Assembly (NCBI RefSeq): GCF_014652435.1
Contig: NZ_BMYU01000001.1
Span: 744,001-808,000, forward strand
Length of the DNA stretch: 64,000 nt
Source of the DNA: Cognatundibacterium squillarum
GTDB lineage: Bacteria > Pseudomonadota > Gammaproteobacteria > Burkholderiales > Burkholderiaceae_D
Direction: 5' to 3'
In this document: piece after piece, positions 3,746 through 9,855 of the stretch
Numbering within the stretch: the stretch's first letter is position 1
How the letters are laid out: the number at the start of each line of letters is the position of its first letter
Position numbers and translations under genes: made by a program
Notes under the pieces: model-generated
The model's database searches: none
What the model saw: only the letters and a program-made list of their open reading frames with translations
What the model was told of the DNA's origin: nothing

Positions 3746-4231
3746 TCAGCCCACTTTCATCGCCTGCAGGGAAACGCTTTTACCGTTTGGCAAGCGCTGA
3801 CGACCGACTTCTTCAAAACCAAAGCCGTGATGGAATTTTTCAGATACCGGATTGGGCGGATCGACATCGTATTCACAGGTCAGCAGCGGTGCGCCCGTTT
3901 CCTGCGCAAATGCCAGCACCCGTTCGTACAGCAAGCCGCCAACACCCAGCCCGCGCACATCTTCACCGATCACAATGCGGTCGATGTACAGAAACTGCGG
4001 ATAACGCGCCGCGAACCACTGGTAATTCAGGCTGTCGTAATCGGCGCCTTCGCGGAATGCGAGTACAAACCCGACCACCTTTCCGTCCAGTTCCACCACC
4101 TGATGCCAGACAGCTTCCTGCTGCAAGTGCGCAAGCCGCGCAGCATCCATAGGACTCAGCAAATGGACAGAATCCGCATTCAGGGCGAGGATTGCCTCGC
4201 CATCCTGCGGTAATGCATTCCGTATCTTCAT
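3746..4231 (-). CDS. GNAT-family N-acetyltransferase
   Basis: A 161-aa cytoplasmic acetyl-CoA-dependent acyltransferase. The conserved motif A is visible as IDRIVIGEDVRGLGVGGLLY, with the acetyl-CoA pyrophosphate loop RGLGVG at residues 93-98. The downstream CEYDVDPPNPVSEKFHHGFGF segment is the usual motif B region of this subfamily (asparagine-proline then Y/F-x-x-x-GF). The substrate is not predictable. It starts with ATG and lies 27 bases from the stop side of the cyclophilin gene, so the minus-strand genes from 5209 to 2599 could be co-transcribed. Confidence 0.85.
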   Translation of the reverse strand: MKIRNALPQDGEAILALNADSVHLLSPMDAARLAHLQQEAVWHQVVELDGKVVGFVLAFREGADYDSLNYQWFAARYPQFLYIDRIVIGEDVRGLGVGGLLYERVLAFAQETGAPLLTCEYDVDPPNPVSEKFHHGFGFEEVGRQRLPNGKSVSLQAMKVG

Positions 4232-4258: not shown

Positions 4259-5209
4259 TCAGGATTGTTTTGCCCTGACCGGGATCGCCACATTACACAA
4301 ATCCACATAAGCTGCAGGCACCTTGTACCAGTCGCCGCCACGATTCCGCAGGGCTTCTTTGATACGCCCGAACACCGGTGCATCGGTACGTATTACTTCC
4401 AGCGCACTGCGCTCCGCTTCCGGTACATCCGCTGCCATACGAACGGCTTTCACCGGCGTGCGTTCTTCTGCTTTCTCATAAAAACCCAGCGCACCTGAAC
4501 CGCGTGGCAGCGTGGTCAGCAATTCCATGCCCTTCATCACGCGCCCCACCACTGCGATATTCCGGTCCAGCTGGCGCGGTGCATGACCAATCACCACGTA
4601 CAGCGAGGTGCCGGAGCCACTGTCCAGCTCATTACCGCGTGCGACACCAACCGCGCCGTAGCAATGAGCAAGCCAGGTTTGCTGCGTTTTCGGGTCCCGC
4701 CCCGCTGCAAATCCGTTCACATGCCCTGCCTGCGGTGCAAAACCATCGCGATCCGGTAAGGCGCTGAATACTTGCCCTGCCGGTACGGGTACGGTGAATT
4801 CCGGTGGCAGTTTGCTTTTGGCTTTTTTCAGCTCGCGCTTTTCATCCGGATCGGCCCATTGCACCACATAGTTTTCATGCGAACGCACAATCGCCAATCC
4901 ATCATAGTATCCCTCGCGTACCAGTGTGCGGATATTGTCAGCGTGGGCTGGCGCAAATTCAGGTGCCAGCTCGATCACGACGCGGCCTTTTTCCAGTTCG
5001 AGATACAAAGTATTTTCCGGATTCAGCGGACGCCAGTCGCCGGGTTGCGACGCTTTCAAAATATCGCCCACCGACTGATACGGCTTCGCGGCTTTTTCTG
5101 CTTTGAGCGATTTACCTGCATCAGCTGCCTGTACTGCGCCGCTGATCAGCATACCGGCCACACCGGCTGCCAGACAAAGTTGTGCTGCACGTGTTGCGTG
5201 TTTCTTCAT
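4259..5209 (-). CDS. Exported cyclophilin-type peptidyl-prolyl cis-trans isomerase
   Basis: Predicted periplasmic prolyl isomerase of 316 aa. A signal peptide with a long alanine-rich core ends around residues 28-29 (AVQAA|DAG). The cyclophilin fold spans about residues 65-255: VVIELAPEFAPAHADNIRTL at its start matches the beta-strand and helix that open all cyclophilins, and YYDGLAIVRSHENYVVQWAD is the equivalent of the FHRVIxxFMxQGGD catalytic stretch, with R in the place of the conserved arginine. Large insertions and an approximately 60-residue C-terminal extension make it longer than minimal PpiA (about 190 aa). Because the QGGD motif is altered to VQWAD, activity should not be taken for granted. 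Confidence 0.8.
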   Translation of the reverse strand: MKKHATRAAQLCLAAGVAGMLISGAVQAADAGKSLKAEKAAKPYQSVGDILKASQPGDWRPLNPENTLYLELEKGRVVIELAPEFAPAHADNIRTLVREGYYDGLAIVRSHENYVVQWADPDEKRELKKAKSKLPPEFTVPVPAGQVFSALPDRDGFAPQAGHVNGFAAGRDPKTQQTWLAHCYGAVGVARGNELDSGSGTSLYVVIGHAPRQLDRNIAVVGRVMKGMELLTTLPRGSGALGFYEKAEERTPVKAVRMAADVPEAERSALEVIRTDAPVFGRIKEALRNRGGDWYKVPAAYVDLCNVAIPVRAKQS

Positions 5210-5387: not shown

Positions 5388-5450
5388 TTGCTTAAAGCGA
5401 CGGCTTTTGATAAATTAATTTTTTTACATTACCACCAAGCGGCGGTAATG
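5388..5450 (+). promoter_or_regulatory. Possible promoter with adjoining inverted repeat upstream of the ClpP-fold gene
   Basis: In the 355-base gap between two divergent genes, TTGCTT (5388-5393), 17 bases, then TAAATT (5411-5416) resemble -35 and -10 boxes. Immediately downstream is the perfect inverted repeat CATTACC / GGTAATG (5427-5433 and 5444-5450, 10-base loop), which could be an operator or a hairpin at the 5' end of the transcript. The rest of 5210-5564 shows no gene that I can support. Confidence 0.35.
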
Positions 5451-5564
5451 CAGACAGGACAGCGCTCCTGCAAGCCTGCAAAGGCAAACGACCGCGACGA
5501 TAACGCGGAACCACAACAATCTCCGGCTGCCATTGCTGCCGGTTCAACGCCGAGAAAAATCCTT

Positions 5565-6584
5565 ATGGAACAAGCACAAAACGATGCAATTCCGGTCAAA
5601 CAACCACCGGTATTGTTCAAAAAAACTCAGACCACCCTGAAAAAACTGTCTGCCATTCTGGGCGGACCGGTGATTTCTTACTGGAATGCTTCACGCGGTT
5701 CCGTCTGTCATAACGATGTGATCGCCTTGTACGAATTGCTGGGCAAACTGGGGCATCACGATACGTTGTATCTGTTTATTAAATCTGCCGGTGGCAATGG
5801 TCAGGCATCGCTGCGCTTAGTCAGCCTGTTGCGCCAGCACTGCAAAAAGCTGGTGGCACTGGTGCCGCTGGAATGCGCATCGGCTGCCACCATGATTACG
5901 CTGGGTGCGAATGACATCATGATGGGCCCGATGGCTTATCTGACCGCCGTGGATACTTCGCTGAATCATGCACTGTCACCGATCGACCGCGACAATGACC
6001 GCGTCAGCGTCAGTCTGGATGAGCTGAACCGTGTCATGCGTTTATGGGAAAGCCAGCAACAGGGCAAACCGCAGGGTGATAATCCGTATCAGTCGCTGTT
6101 CCAGTATGTGCATCCGCTGGTGATTGGTGCGGTGGACCGTGCGGAATCGCTGTCGATTATGCTGTGTAAAGAATTGCTGGCATATCACATCAAAGATCCG
6201 GCACGCGCCGATCAGATCGCGCAGGATCTGAACAGCAAATATCCTTCGCACAGTTATCCGATTCTGCTGAACGAAGCCGGCAAGCTCGGTCTGAATGTCA
6301 GCCCGATGGATTTGCAGGTGAATGCGCTGCTGCTGGAACTGAACCAGTACTACAGTGAAATGGGCCAGAAAGCGATTACCGATTTCGATGAAATCCGTTC
6401 GCACAGCAATGAAATCCTGAACATCTGGGAAGGTCTGGATACGCAGATCTTCTTCCAGCAGGATAAAGACTGGTTCTACCGTGCGGAAGAACGTCGCTGG
6501 ATTACGATGAATGACAATTCCGGCTGGCGTAAGCTGGAGCAAGTCGGCGGCAAAACCCGCAGCAGCCGTTTCCACATCGAATAA
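5565..6584 (+). CDS. ClpP/SppA-fold serine proteinase-like protein (SDH_sah family)
   Basis: A 339-aa cytoplasmic protein with a ClpP/crotonase-like fold, of the family annotated as SDH-type Clp-fold serine proteinase. Landmarks are the small-residue turn FIKSAGGNGQASL after the first beta-alpha unit and LECASAATMITLGANDIMMG, where S106 sits at the position of the ClpP/SppA nucleophile. The frame stays open upstream to 5388, but that extension is low-complexity and lacks a ribosome-binding site. I chose ATG 5565, which opens MEQAQNDAIPVKQPP directly before the conserved domain. The C-terminal 90 residues (tyrosine- and tryptophan-rich) are outside the protease fold. Substrates are unknown. 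No membrane segment is seen, unlike SppA. Confidence 0.75.
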   Translation: MEQAQNDAIPVKQPPVLFKKTQTTLKKLSAILGGPVISYWNASRGSVCHNDVIALYELLGKLGHHDTLYLFIKSAGGNGQASLRLVSLLRQHCKKLVALVPLECASAATMITLGANDIMMGPMAYLTAVDTSLNHALSPIDRDNDRVSVSLDELNRVMRLWESQQQGKPQGDNPYQSLFQYVHPLVIGAVDRAESLSIMLCKELLAYHIKDPARADQIAQDLNSKYPSHSYPILLNEAGKLGLNVSPMDLQVNALLLELNQYYSEMGQKAITDFDEIRSHSNEILNIWEGLDTQIFFQQDKDWFYRAEERRWITMNDNSGWRKLEQVGGKTRSSRFHIE

Positions 6585-6715: not shown

Positions 6716-6758
6716 AAAAAGCGCGTTCCGGTCATCATTACCGGAACGCGCTTTTTTT
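6716..6758. terminator. Bidirectional terminator between convergent genes
   Basis: Long perfect stem AAAGCGCGTTCCGGT / ACCGGAACGCGCTTT flanked by an A-run on the left and a T-run on the right, so it can end transcription of the ClpP-fold gene and of the minus-strand methyltransferase. Confidence 0.9.
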
Positions 6759-6786: not shown

Positions 6787-7719
6787 TCAGGCAGCTACCA
6801 GACCCGCGGCGACAGCTTCCTGCATTTGTGACGATTGCTGACGCAGACTGATACGCAAGCTGTTCTGCAACGCCGAAATCGGTGCGCCGGTATGGTAAGC
6901 GAACGACACATCCACAATATCACCGGCTTTTACCTGCACTGGTTCCGGCACCGGAATCGCCATATAGTGATTCAGCCAGTCAATTGTGGAACCGGTATCC
7001 AGCAACACTGCCAGCACATTTTTGGTCACAAAACGCAGCGCGGTCAGGGTGCCTGCGGTTTCAATCTGCAGACTGCCCTGCCAGCGCACCGCCAGCTCAT
7101 TCGGCTGACAAAAATCGATCACGCTGTACAGTACCGGCTGTCCCAGTTCCTGCGTATTCGCAGAAAACACGCCCGGCTGCGTGAACTGAATAATCGGTGC
7201 CTGATAACCCCAGAAATCATAGGTTTCCTGCAAAGGCTGCACCGCCATCAGCACGGCTTCCGGAATAAACACCGGCATTTTTGCGTCAGGGAAGCGCTGT
7301 GCATAACGGCGCTTGAAGCCTTCAATGACTTCAACTTGCTTTTCACGCAGCATCGCAACGTGAATCATTTCGCAAATCACAAAATCCACAGGCTCAGGTG
7401 GCAGGTATTCAAACGCATCGGCGTGAATCACTTCCACGCGCTCACCATAACGGTTTTTCGCCAGCAAGCGACGCGCTTCCGCCACCATGTCCGGATTAAA
7501 TTCCACGCAATACACTCTGGATGCGGATTGCGCCGCAAACCACGACAACACGCCGGTACCGCCGCCGAGTTCCAGTACTTTGGCGCCTTCAAACACATGG
7601 TGCTGAATTGCCGCTTTAAAATTGTCCATGCGGTTCGCGTCCATCAGCATATTGTGATGGTATTGCACCGGAATAAACTGCCCCAGATAGCAGCTTTCCG
7701 CTTCACGTTCTACCAGCAT
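6787..7719 (-). CDS. SAM-dependent methyltransferase resembling protein arginine methyltransferases
   Basis: A 310-aa class I methyltransferase. Motif I is VLELGGGTGVLSWFAA (E50 to G55 region), followed by the acidic end of beta-2 (YCVEFNP). Three features match eukaryotic PRMTs rather than generic small-molecule enzymes. First, YHHNMLMDANRMDNFKAAI stands where PRMTs have the H-x-x-ML-x-D-x-x-R helix. Second, EMIHVAMLRE has two glutamates nine residues apart, the spacing of the PRMT double-E loop. Third, the C-terminal half is beta-rich with P-x-x-V-x-x-GD, as in a PRMT barrel, with NHY near the place of the THW loop. The start at 7719 follows AAGGA; the open frame extends further upstream without support. 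Its substrate is unknown. It could instead methylate another nitrogen or oxygen. Confidence 0.75.
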   Translation of the reverse strand: MLVEREAESCYLGQFIPVQYHHNMLMDANRMDNFKAAIQHHVFEGAKVLELGGGTGVLSWFAAQSASRVYCVEFNPDMVAEARRLLAKNRYGERVEVIHADAFEYLPPEPVDFVICEMIHVAMLREKQVEVIEGFKRRYAQRFPDAKMPVFIPEAVLMAVQPLQETYDFWGYQAPIIQFTQPGVFSANTQELGQPVLYSVIDFCQPNELAVRWQGSLQIETAGTLTALRFVTKNVLAVLLDTGSTIDWLNHYMAIPVPEPVQVKAGDIVDVSFAYHTGAPISALQNSLRISLRQQSSQMQEAVAAGLVAA

Positions 7720-7840
7720 ATGTCGTCCTTCCCGTTTGAATGTGATCACTGTGCTGCCCGCACGCTGCGTGGCAGTACGCCTGCTGTCAGGCAGGAAGAT
7801 CAACCTGCTATGACACAGGCTGATTATCTCTGAGCGCACA

Positions 7841-7889: not shown

Positions 7890-7911
7890 GCACAACGGGA
7901 ATATCAGCAGA

Positions 7912-8127
7912 TCAGTTTTTTTCTATACTGCAACGCGCATCCAGATAGGCTTTTTTACCCTGCTCCCAGCCATCACCGGGCGAAGTCTGGGCGCAAATCC
8001 GCGCGTCGCTGGTTTTGCTACTCCACCAGTACCACGGCGCCGGTGCAGCCTGTGCCAGCGACAACAGGCTCAGCGCTGTTATGGCCAGTAAGCTGCGGCG
8101 AAAGAATGACTTTACTGAACGATCCAT
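7912..8127 (-). CDS. Small exported protein of unknown function
   Basis: A 71-aa protein with an obvious signal peptide (two arginines, then AITALSLLSLAQA, cleavage near residue 27), leaving a mature peptide of about 44 residues. The mature part is rich in tryptophan (WYWW) and has two cysteines that could form a disulfide (RICAQ and ARCSI). Its ATG overlaps the last codons of the upstream hydrolase gene by 16 bases, so it is probably translated from the same transcript. I do not recognise the family. Confidence 0.6.
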   Translation of the reverse strand: MDRSVKSFFRRSLLAITALSLLSLAQAAPAPWYWWSSKTSDARICAQTSPGDGWEQGKKAYLDARCSIEKN

Positions 8128-8723
8128 GTTGCTTCTACCAGCAATTGCGCGTCACTGAAAATTTTTCCGGTGTAAGTTTGCCCCGGCAACACTTGCCCCA
8201 CGCCCTTCGGGGTACCGGTCATGATCACGTCACCGTCTTCCAGCGTTGCGAAACTCTGAATTTCCGGCAGCAGCGCAGCAGGCTTGTTCAGCATCAGCGG
8301 CACACCGCCGGCCTGCGCCAGTTTGCCGTCTATCCACAATTCCAGATGCAGGCTTTCCAGTGGCACATTCAGCGTCACGAATTCGCTGAACACGGCTGCA
8401 CCGTCAAACGCTTTTGCACGTTCCCACGGCAAGCCTTTCTCCTTCAGCTGATACTGTACCTGACGTTTGGTCAGATCCAGACCAAATCCCACTGCAGTGT
8501 ACTGACCGCCCTGCACCAGCAGAGAAATCTCGCCTTCATAATGCACTTCATCGCCGTTGTGAATGCGCAGTACATCGGTCACTGCGGAATTCGGCTTCAT
8601 AAAGATTACCGCTTGCGCAGGCACTTCGTTATTCAGCTCAGCAATGTGATCTGCGTAATTACGACCGATACACACCACTTTCGATGGCTGCACCTGCTGC
8701 GCTCCGAATCGAATTTTCTGCAC
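8112..8723 (-). CDS. Fumarylacetoacetate hydrolase-family protein
   Basis: A 203-aa enzyme of the short FAH superfamily (YcgM/FAHD1-like), which includes acylpyruvate hydrolases and oxaloacetate decarboxylases. The sequence opens with the substrate loop VVCIGRNYADHIAEL, followed by FMKPNSAV. The divalent-metal ligands are likely E63 and E65 (HYEGEISLLV) and D83 (GLDLTKRQVQ), and the C-terminal GDVIMTGTPKGVG loop is canonical. The usual RD of the TxRDxQ motif is changed to RQ (TKRQVQ). Length is normal for the family. The exact substrate cannot be told. Transcription probably continues into the small exported protein gene. Confidence 0.85.
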   Translation of the reverse strand: MQKIRFGAQQVQPSKVVCIGRNYADHIAELNNEVPAQAVIFMKPNSAVTDVLRIHNGDEVHYEGEISLLVQGGQYTAVGFGLDLTKRQVQYQLKEKGLPWERAKAFDGAAVFSEFVTLNVPLESLHLELWIDGKLAQAGGVPLMLNKPAALLPEIQSFATLEDGDVIMTGTPKGVGQVLPGQTYTGKIFSDAQLLVEATWIVQ

Positions 8724-8849: not shown

Positions 8850-9575
8850 TTATTCAGCAGCCGCGATCTCTGCCGAACCGGACTGCTGCAAATGCTGCAC
8901 CAGCTCTTCTATCGTCAGAATCACCATATCGTGCGCCAGCGCATAGCTAAGTACCTGCGCACCGGCAGCCATGCTGCCATCCGGATTCATCAGCTCACAT
9001 AATACGCCTGCCGGCTGCAAACCGGCCAGACGCATCAGATCAATCGTGCCCTCGGTATGACCACGCCGCTGCAAAACGCCACCCGGCATCGCACGCAAAG
9101 GAAATACATGTCCCGGACGCGCCAGATCTTCCGGCTTTGCCTGCGGATGAATTGCCGCCTGTATCGTGGTGACGCGGTCTTTGGCGGAAACACCGGTGGT
9201 GACGCCGTGTTTCGCTTCAATTGTGACGGTAAACGCCGTGCCGTAGCGGCTCTGGTTATCTTCCACCATCATCGGTAACTCCAGCGCGCGGATTTTTTCC
9301 GTGGTCAGGCACAGGCAGGCAATGCCGCTGCAATCGCGAATCAGCCGCGCCATCATGTCTGTACTCAGCTTTTCAGCTGAAACGATCAGGTCTGCTTCGT
9401 TTTCACGATCGGCATCATCCATCAGCAAAACGGCACGGCCTGCGCGTAAATCATCCAGCGCACGCGGCAAACGCTGCGCGACGGGATGCTGTACGAAGTA
9501 GTCAGAAAACGCCGCAGCGGACGCTGCACCGGAATTCGCAAGAATTTGCTCAGAAGTAAAGGTAGTTTGTTGCAT
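8850..9575 (-). CDS. ribB: 3,4-dihydroxy-2-butanone 4-phosphate synthase (riboflavin synthesis)
   Basis: Converts ribulose 5-phosphate to formate and 3,4-dihydroxy-2-butanone 4-phosphate, the four-carbon unit for the riboflavin ring. Signature segments are all present: [69 protein letters not shown] and CELMNPDG. At 241 aa it is a stand-alone enzyme with no fused GTP cyclohydrolase II domain. ATG 9575 is chosen because a GTGGAG ribosome-binding site precedes it; the open frame upstream runs toward the FMN riboswitch and is not coding. The long leader carries the riboswitch and a hairpin over the ribosome-binding site, so translation should fall when FMN is high. Confidence 0.95.
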
Positions 9576-9613
9576 TGAAACGCTCCACAAAAAAGTTTGT
9601 AAAAGACGTTTCA
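9576..9613 (-). promoter_or_regulatory. Hairpin that could sequester the ribB ribosome-binding site
   Basis: TGAAACG (minus strand 9613-9607) pairs with CGTTTCA (9582-9576). The second arm ends at the base before the ribB ATG and the loop contains the GTGGAG ribosome-binding site. This is a plausible output stage for the FMN riboswitch, which lies about 100 bases upstream. The link is an inference. Confidence 0.5.
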
Positions 9614-9715
9614 GGGAACGACGTAAGATCCGCAATTCTGCAGCACCCATGCAGCAGCCAGCCTTTCCGCCGGACGGAAATGCAGCAGCACTGCGAATGC
9701 GCAGCAAAACAGACA

Positions 9716-9855
9716 TCTTCTCTCATCCGGACTTTGACCGTCGGCTCCGGATTCACACCGGATCTGCTGACCCTGAGACAACTCAGGCGCTCGCGGGCTG
9801 GTTACAGAAACCCTGCAACTTCACCGCCGGTGGGGAATTTCACCCCGCCCTGAAG
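9716..9855 (-). promoter_or_regulatory. FMN riboswitch (RFN element) controlling ribB
   Basis: On the minus strand the conserved RFN blocks occur in order: CTTCAGGGCGGGGTGAAATT, CCCCACCGGCGGT, AGCCCGCGAGCGCC, GGTCAGCAGATCCGGTGTGA, GCCGACGGTCA and GTCCGGATGAGAGAAGA. The closing P1 helix (CTTC / GAAG) is present. This matches the established aptamer essentially along its full length and faces ribB. Confidence 0.96.

Follow-up and report, generated by a model that had tools for sequence, protein, structure and literature searches.

A bacterial gene family predicted to encode a variant of the protein arginine methyltransferase fold

Arginine methylation is usually regarded as a eukaryotic modification. 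In the window (the whole stretch of 64,000 nucleotides analysed here), the initial annotation described one gene product, P0001, as a bacterial methyltransferase with features of the protein arginine methyltransferases (PRMTs), and the question raised by this locus is whether the protein is built as a PRMT and, if so, on what it acts. The description is largely borne out by matches in the PDB, by a PRMT fold predicted nearly from end to end and by a conserved double-E pair of glutamates: the gene almost certainly encodes a PRMT-fold enzyme, with a predicted Rossmann S-adenosylmethionine (SAM) domain and a PRMT beta-barrel. We infer, with reasonable though not high confidence, that it is a protein-arginine methyltransferase acting on some bacterial protein. 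Because the histidine of the THW loop is lost and the Pfam PRMT models reject the protein, the enzyme is best filed as a new PRMT variant, outside any named PRMT type.

The gene and the predicted fold of its product

The positions of the gene, of the motifs discussed below and of the neighbouring genes are collected in Table 1. Upstream of the ATG at 7719 the P0001 frame remains open as far as a GTG at 7893; in all 100 loci of the set L001–L100 (L001 being the window itself, and several duplicates being included), the match starts at the same M/V-L-x-E position, and we took the ATG as the start of P0001 because the relatives' matches begin at this same place. The terminator scan gave three sites in total against a shuffle mean of 2.2, a count not above that of the shuffles, and the support for the hairpin directly 3′ of the gene is its stem length and position only. 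A promoter scan found nothing promoter-like upstream of the gene and one site inside it, on the opposite strand (shuffles, 0.9). Given the hairpin after the gene and a gap of approximately 190 bases to the upstream 71-amino acid frame, which ends at 7912, the gene is likely to be transcribed as a single-gene unit. Purifying selection is indicated by dN/dS values of 0.09–0.17 in the five of 11 pairs with a finite dS, the other six giving no finite dS. The closest named relatives, from Undibacterium curvum and U. rugosum, are 80–81% identical.

Table 1. Positions in the window of the PRMT-like gene, its predicted features and its neighbours.
Feature	Position	Strand	Basis or remark
CDS, PRMT-like protein P0001, 310 aa	6787..7719	−	ATG at 7719; stop codon 6787-6789
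Ribosome-binding-site-like GGAAGGA	7726..7732	−	Just before ATG; read from sequence
Intrinsic-terminator-like hairpin, 17 pairs	6716..6756	−	Directly 3′ of the PRMT-like gene; terminator scan
YHHNMLMDANRM, residues 20-31, counterpart of PRMT xxML-x-D-x-x-R helix	7627..7662	−	Alignment with PRMTs
Motif I VLELGGGTG, residues 48-56, putative SAM binding	7552..7578	−	Alignments; ELGGGTG at 50-56
E73, post-I acidic residue	7501..7503	−	E in 44/47, D in 3/47
Double-E loop E117-MIHVAMLR-E126	7342..7371	−	PDB search, profile–profile, family alignment
H120 in double-E loop	7360..7362	−	47/47 family members
T245-I-D247-W248, THW-loop counterpart	6976..6987	−	Profile–profile and joint MAFFT alignment; D, W 47/47
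C-terminal PRMT-type beta-barrel domain, predicted, residues 147-296	6832..7281	−	Full and barrel-only models
Small exported-looking protein, 71 aa, contains PAPWYWWSSKTSDARIC	7912-8127	−	Upstream of the PRMT-like gene
FAA hydrolase	8112-8723	−	Pfam
DHBP synthase	8850-9716	−	Pfam
SDH-type ClpP-like serine protease domain, 398-aa frame, TTG start	5388-6584	+	Pfam
Cyclophilin	4259-5209	−	Pfam
GNAT acetyltransferase	3746-4231	−	Pfam

A phmmer search of the PDB with the single protein returned 59 PRMTs and one PrmA among the best 60 of 132 matches (E ≤ 1), the best PRMT having an E-value of 9.1e-14. For the family as a whole we used an alignment of 47 sequences, the window protein included, whose other members are 32–79% identical to it; the best 60 of 283 PDB matches of the corresponding profile were all PRMTs (top E, 2.6e-21), one of them being named MGC151858 but titled PRMT9 in the Foldseek listing. 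In these PDB searches the PRMTs align with the Rossmann half of P0001, and a profile–profile alignment to a set of 11 further bacterial PRMT-like proteins extends over residues 17–276 (probability 99.9, E = 2.5e-36). The initial annotation had proposed a profile search against the PRMT family, and the outcome is divided: the PDB profile matches PRMTs, but none of the listed Pfam PRMT models reaches its cut-off. P0001 scores 17.8 bits against the 22.9 bits needed for PRMT5 (PF05185), which is matched weakly by 45 of the 47 members (E ≤ 1; best E, 7.9e-4), while PRMT_C (PF22528) is absent from all 21 P0001 matches up to E = 1, is absent for the 47 members among the best 25 of 49 families, and has no match in the genome that carries the window.

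An AlphaFold2 model calculated from the family alignment has a mean pLDDT of 91.9 and a pTM of 0.87, and the beta-rich C-terminal half anticipated from the sequence is seen in it. In a Foldseek search with the full model, the best 50 PDB matches are all PRMTs (top E, 7e-19; query TM, 0.63–0.75), and VIA-align 2 superposes residues 3–296 on human PRMT6 (5egs) with a Z of 25.7 and an rmsd of 2.7 over 280 aligned residues. To rule out that the Rossmann half was dragging the rest along, residues 147–294 were also folded alone. This barrel-only model (pLDDT, 88.6) again has only PRMTs or PRMT5/methylosome complexes as its best 50 Foldseek matches (top E, 2.7e-6), those listed having a modest query TM of 0.53–0.61 and an rmsd of 4.9–7.8; against PRMT6, VIA gives a Z of 11.3 and an rmsd of 3.2 over 135 aligned residues. 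Thus the C-terminal half matches PRMT barrels by itself, and the barrel prediction is independent of the Rossmann half. The barrel, whose absence had been named beforehand as grounds for abandoning the PRMT assignment, is therefore predicted in the full and the barrel-only models alike, with structure prediction and profile–profile alignment as its only sources of support. The stretch in which PRMTs carry their dimerisation arm (approximately residues 166–195) is present, and has no helix in the model.

Active-site residues and their likely role

The motifs of PRMTs are given as I, post-I, II, double-E, III and THW, with motif I reading VLD/VGxGxG (PMC12153873). The ELGGGTG motif noted previously lies in a sequence of this kind, the motif I glycines being kept in 46–47 of the 47 members, and the acidic post-I residue is present as E73, with C71 of the window protein lying two positions before it where G or A is usual. 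Motif II (E/K/VDII) is represented by VDFVI at residues 111–115, with D112 in 47/47, whereas at motif III (LK/xxGxxxP) most members have FGGPLPVFxPE, in which the G-to-P spacing is longer than in the motif. The initial annotation had also singled out a helix resembling H-x-x-ML-x-D-x-x-R; it is found at residues 20–31 as YHHNMLMDANRM and aligns with the PRMT helix, H21 and M24 being kept in 46/47 and D27 and R30 in 47/47.

The two glutamates nine residues apart were likewise correctly placed in the double-E position. The double-E loop aligns without gaps with eukaryotic PRMTs in the PDB sequence search (E = 9e-14), and E117 and E126 are each kept in 46/47, the sole exception being the divergent member L123. 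The consensus SExMGxxLxxExM is only partly kept, its Ser, Gly and Met being replaced by Cys, His and Gln. The histidine, H120, is invariant in the family; its counterpart in the 11 other bacterial PRMT-like proteins is G (five), D (three), S (two) or N (one), and in the seven eukaryotic stretches of our tree it is by eye G or D, never H. The counterpart of the THW loop, for which NHY had been suggested, is T245-I-D247-W248 in both alignments: NHY (residues 250–252) is indeed near this place but is not the counterpart. The tryptophan, W248, aligns with Trp in 11/11 of the other bacterial PRMT-like proteins. The THW histidine, in contrast, is Asp (D247) in 47/47 members, whereas nine of those 11 proteins have His at this position, the remaining two having Cys and Ser. 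The two departures from the PRMT pocket, H120 and D247, occur in concert in all 47 sequences.

In Trypanosoma brucei PRMT7, which is among the top matches of the family profile, Q329 occupies the THW histidine position and contacts the guanidino group of the substrate (PMC8226133), and this position therefore varies among proven PRMTs. The trypanosomal enzyme resembles the window family in having a residue other than His there, but that residue is Gln rather than Asp, and its double-E loop has Gly rather than His. With eukaryotic PRMTs in general (PRMT6, CARM1/PRMT4, plant PRMT10, PRMT2 and PRMT3, and, via the profile, PRMT7 and PRMT9), the family shares the Rossmann SAM domain, the ML-x-D-x-x-R helix, the double-E pair nine residues apart, the THW-loop Trp, the predicted beta-barrel and the order of the domains. 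It differs from them in having Asp for the THW His, an invariant His for the double-E Gly and Gln for Met, in a window-protein model without arm helices, in an identity of only approximately 16–22% in structural alignments, and in forming a separate clan.

The bacterial proteins of the PRMT_C type have in common with the window family the extended profile–profile match, the double-E pair and the THW-loop Trp. The PRMT_C model was matched in L125, L126, L127, L130 and L133 in the scan of loci and in L128 and L131 in the genome scan; in a Pfam scan covering six of the 11 bacterial PRMT-like proteins compared, five passed its cut-off. Apart from the residues at the two pocket positions, several of the 11 differ from the window family by long N-terminal extensions, which by eye are TPR-like in L126, L128, L131 and L133. 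Another of these proteins, L130 (916-1890, − strand), aligns through its residues 3–283 with yeast Hmt1 (5e-41) and has a C-terminal SEC-C motif; judged by its sequence, this bacterial protein looks like a canonical PRMT. Two PRMTs have been predicted in Legionella pneumophila Paris, and Rv1988 of Mycobacterium tuberculosis is described as a secreted arginine methyltransferase (both PMC10117894), so that the idea of bacterial PRMTs is already known; among the best-ranked matches of a literature search limited to open-licence PMC articles, we found nothing on the window family or on the IDW/His variant.

In PRMTs, the double-E glutamates are the residues that bind the guanidino nitrogens, and the tryptophan of THW packs on the arginine (PMC4860837). 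By analogy, SAM would bind at the GxGxG/E73 site of P0001 and the substrate arginine would enter between the Rossmann and barrel domains, where E117 and E126 would grip the guanidinium through salt bridges and W248 would pack against the arginine side chain. D247, in place of the usual histidine, could provide a third acidic contact, and the invariant H120 may take part from the double-E loop; the methyl group would then be transferred to one of the guanidino nitrogens of an arginine in a bacterial protein. A more specific proposal, which we put forward tentatively and would not call likely, is that the family is a separate prokaryotic PRMT lineage, on a branch of its own beside the eukaryotic and bacterial PRMTs known so far, in which the catalytic His has moved from the THW loop to H120 and the barrel has gained D247 in its place; the guanidinium of a conserved, non-RGG bacterial target would then be handled by three carboxylates together with the relocated His. 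What places the protein among the PRMTs is its sequence relationship to them, the conservation of residues, the fold predicted for it and the separate clan that the family forms in the tree; a shared fold alone does not establish function. With its natural Asp/His change in the pocket, the family would allow a direct test of what the THW histidine does; if a substrate were found, arginine methylation could be studied in a simple bacterial setting.

Alternative readings of the protein

The strongest competing possibility, although we consider it unlikely, is that the PRMT fold acts here on something other than protein arginine, such as a small molecule with a guanidino group, a different side chain or an intermediate of natural-product synthesis, and that H120 and D247 reflect this changed substrate. 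That both departures are strict in all 47 members would fit such a change, and so would the lack of an RGGRGG-type protein: with arginine written as CGN codons (arginines encoded by AGA or AGG fall outside the pattern), RGGRGG gave two matches in the protein's own genome compared with seven for the reversed control, and neither is in frame in a listed same-strand ORF of at least 70 amino acids. As no gene with a CGN-coded RGGRGG was found, the classic type of PRMT substrate is not in evidence. The best NCBIfam model for P0001 can also be cited on this side, being the corrinoid-protein-associated methyltransferase CpaM (NF043040); however, its score of 56.2 bits is far below the cut-off of 180, and the match (residues 18–138) stops at the end of the Rossmann domain. 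CpaM is also the top NCBIfam model in the four further members scanned (30.4–63.7 bits), and nothing relevant was found among the best-ranked literature matches for it. A non-arginine target is harder to reconcile with the fact that the two glutamates that hold guanidinium in PRMTs, and the Trp that packs on arginine, are retained. The PRMT barrel forms a peptide groove, and this barrel is predicted in P0001; furthermore, the six neighbours scanned in the window show no sign of a biosynthetic cluster.

Methylation of a protein arginine remains the reading that we favour. A non-catalytic pseudoenzyme or regulator with the PRMT fold would account for the altered THW loop and has a precedent in TbPRMT3, a partner PRMT that has lost loops and is inactive (PMC8226133), but as 46/47 members conserve the SAM motifs together with the two glutamates and only L123 is degenerate, we regard it as very improbable for the family. 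L123 itself (1441-2313, − strand) has Asp and Ala at the positions of the two glutamates and a changed SAM loop, and keeps H120, D247 and W248; from its sequence, it is a possible pseudoenzyme.

Still less probable is an ordinary class I methyltransferase without PRMT kinship, for example PrmA, which methylates ribosomal protein L11, or an RNA methyltransferase. Pfam places generic methyltransferase domains at the top for P0001, PrmA and RrnaAD match weakly (as in 46/47 members at E ≤ 1, PrmA reaching 1.2e-9), and two plasmid-borne relatives are annotated as L11 methyltransferases. However, P0001 scores 20.9 bits with PrmA (PF06325), below the cut-off of 22 bits, which two other members, L117 (29.7 bits) and L116 (38.5 bits), pass in the Rossmann region only; PrmA falls far below the PRMTs in the PDB search (7e-4 versus 9e-14); and the reading is contradicted by the barrel-only fold search, which matches PRMT barrels.

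A role in phage defence (as Mad2 of the MADS system) or as a DNA methyltransferase scarcely deserves credence, although PADLOC mad2 gave the highest family-model score seen (69.7 bits, E = 5.3e-20) and the best PHROGs match is a DNA methyltransferase (26.7 bits, residues 35–116): the mad2 alignment joins P0001 residues 41–133 to 93 of 492 model positions, the SAM core and not the whole model; the (D/N/S)PP(Y/F) motif of DNA methyltransferases is not seen in the P0001 sequence; the six window neighbours are not defence-like in the Pfam scan; and no relative was found among 50,697 phage records, none of which matches the window protein, or among viral contigs, where none of 100 pattern matches is a relative. 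We read the mad2 and CpaM matches as probably reflecting a shared SAM core.

Phylogeny, distribution and genomic neighbourhood

In a tree of the catalytic region (161 columns and 31 rows, 13 of them from the window family), the family forms one clan with a support of 100/99, and eukaryotic PRMTs and bacterial PRMT-like proteins lie intermixed outside it; the tree is unrooted and short, with L123 on a long branch. The view that such proteins are uncommon in bacteria agrees with their distribution. In a sample of Pseudomonadota, 21 of 398 genomes have a match, ten belonging to the window family (full-length alignments) and 11 being other PRMT-like proteins; the window family occurs in 16 of 300 genomes of a Burkholderiales sample, and Pfam PRMT_C in nine of 299 genomes, with no match in 14 control genomes. 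Among 60 genomes, the protein's own included, 39 have a match at E ≤ 1e-3, of which 26 are long, 12 are short and generic only, and one (G006) is a fragment at a contig end. Within its own genus, a long match is found in 24 of 36 genomes, and several genomes rated as 100% complete are without one.

If the proposed assignment is true, counts of bacterial PRMTs are too low and some of these proteins carry wrong annotations, and the Pfam PRMT models miss a conserved chromosomal family in environmental Burkholderiales. Plasmid records contain two weak matches, in NC_017966.1 (Tistrella) and NZ_CP082345.1 (Pantoea), both annotated '50S ribosomal protein L11 methyltransferase', which is possibly a misnomer for PRMT-like proteins. 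One copy (G011:C34:276774-277693) is split over two overlapping frames covering residues 1–137 and 134–307, owing to either a frameshift or an assembly error. Selenocysteine was considered for L107, L108 and L114, which have a TGA within the match, and was rejected, the TGA being an ordinary stop at the end of the gene.

The neighbourhood was compared across 80 of 224 loci, kept from a scan for close relatives over GTDB species. A gene that is ankyrin-like by eye lies immediately upstream in 47 of the 75 placed loci (of 80), at 81–160 bases in 40 of the 47, and a divergent gene of one cluster occupies this place in ten other placed loci. What we take to be the usual Massilia/Duganella-type order is tmk, holB, pilZ, tatD, ankyrin-like gene, PRMT-like gene (40 of the 80 loci listed). 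The order from tmk to the ankyrin-like gene was not seen in the Undibacterium loci, a weak absence given that our own purpose-built gene caller, trained on the codons of these loci's genes, missed many genes there. Because other genes surround the PRMT-like gene in the window and in the Undibacterium loci, no partner was inferred, and the search for an operon partner or substrate by way of the neighbourhood was dropped.

After the 71-amino acid frame of the window, a hairpin and T-run can be seen by eye near 7888-7831; it is missing from the list given by the terminator scan. Frames similar to the 71-amino acid protein form a cluster in six of the 80 loci, upstream of the PRMT-like gene in 6/6, and the strict WYWWSS motif is confined to L021 and L022.
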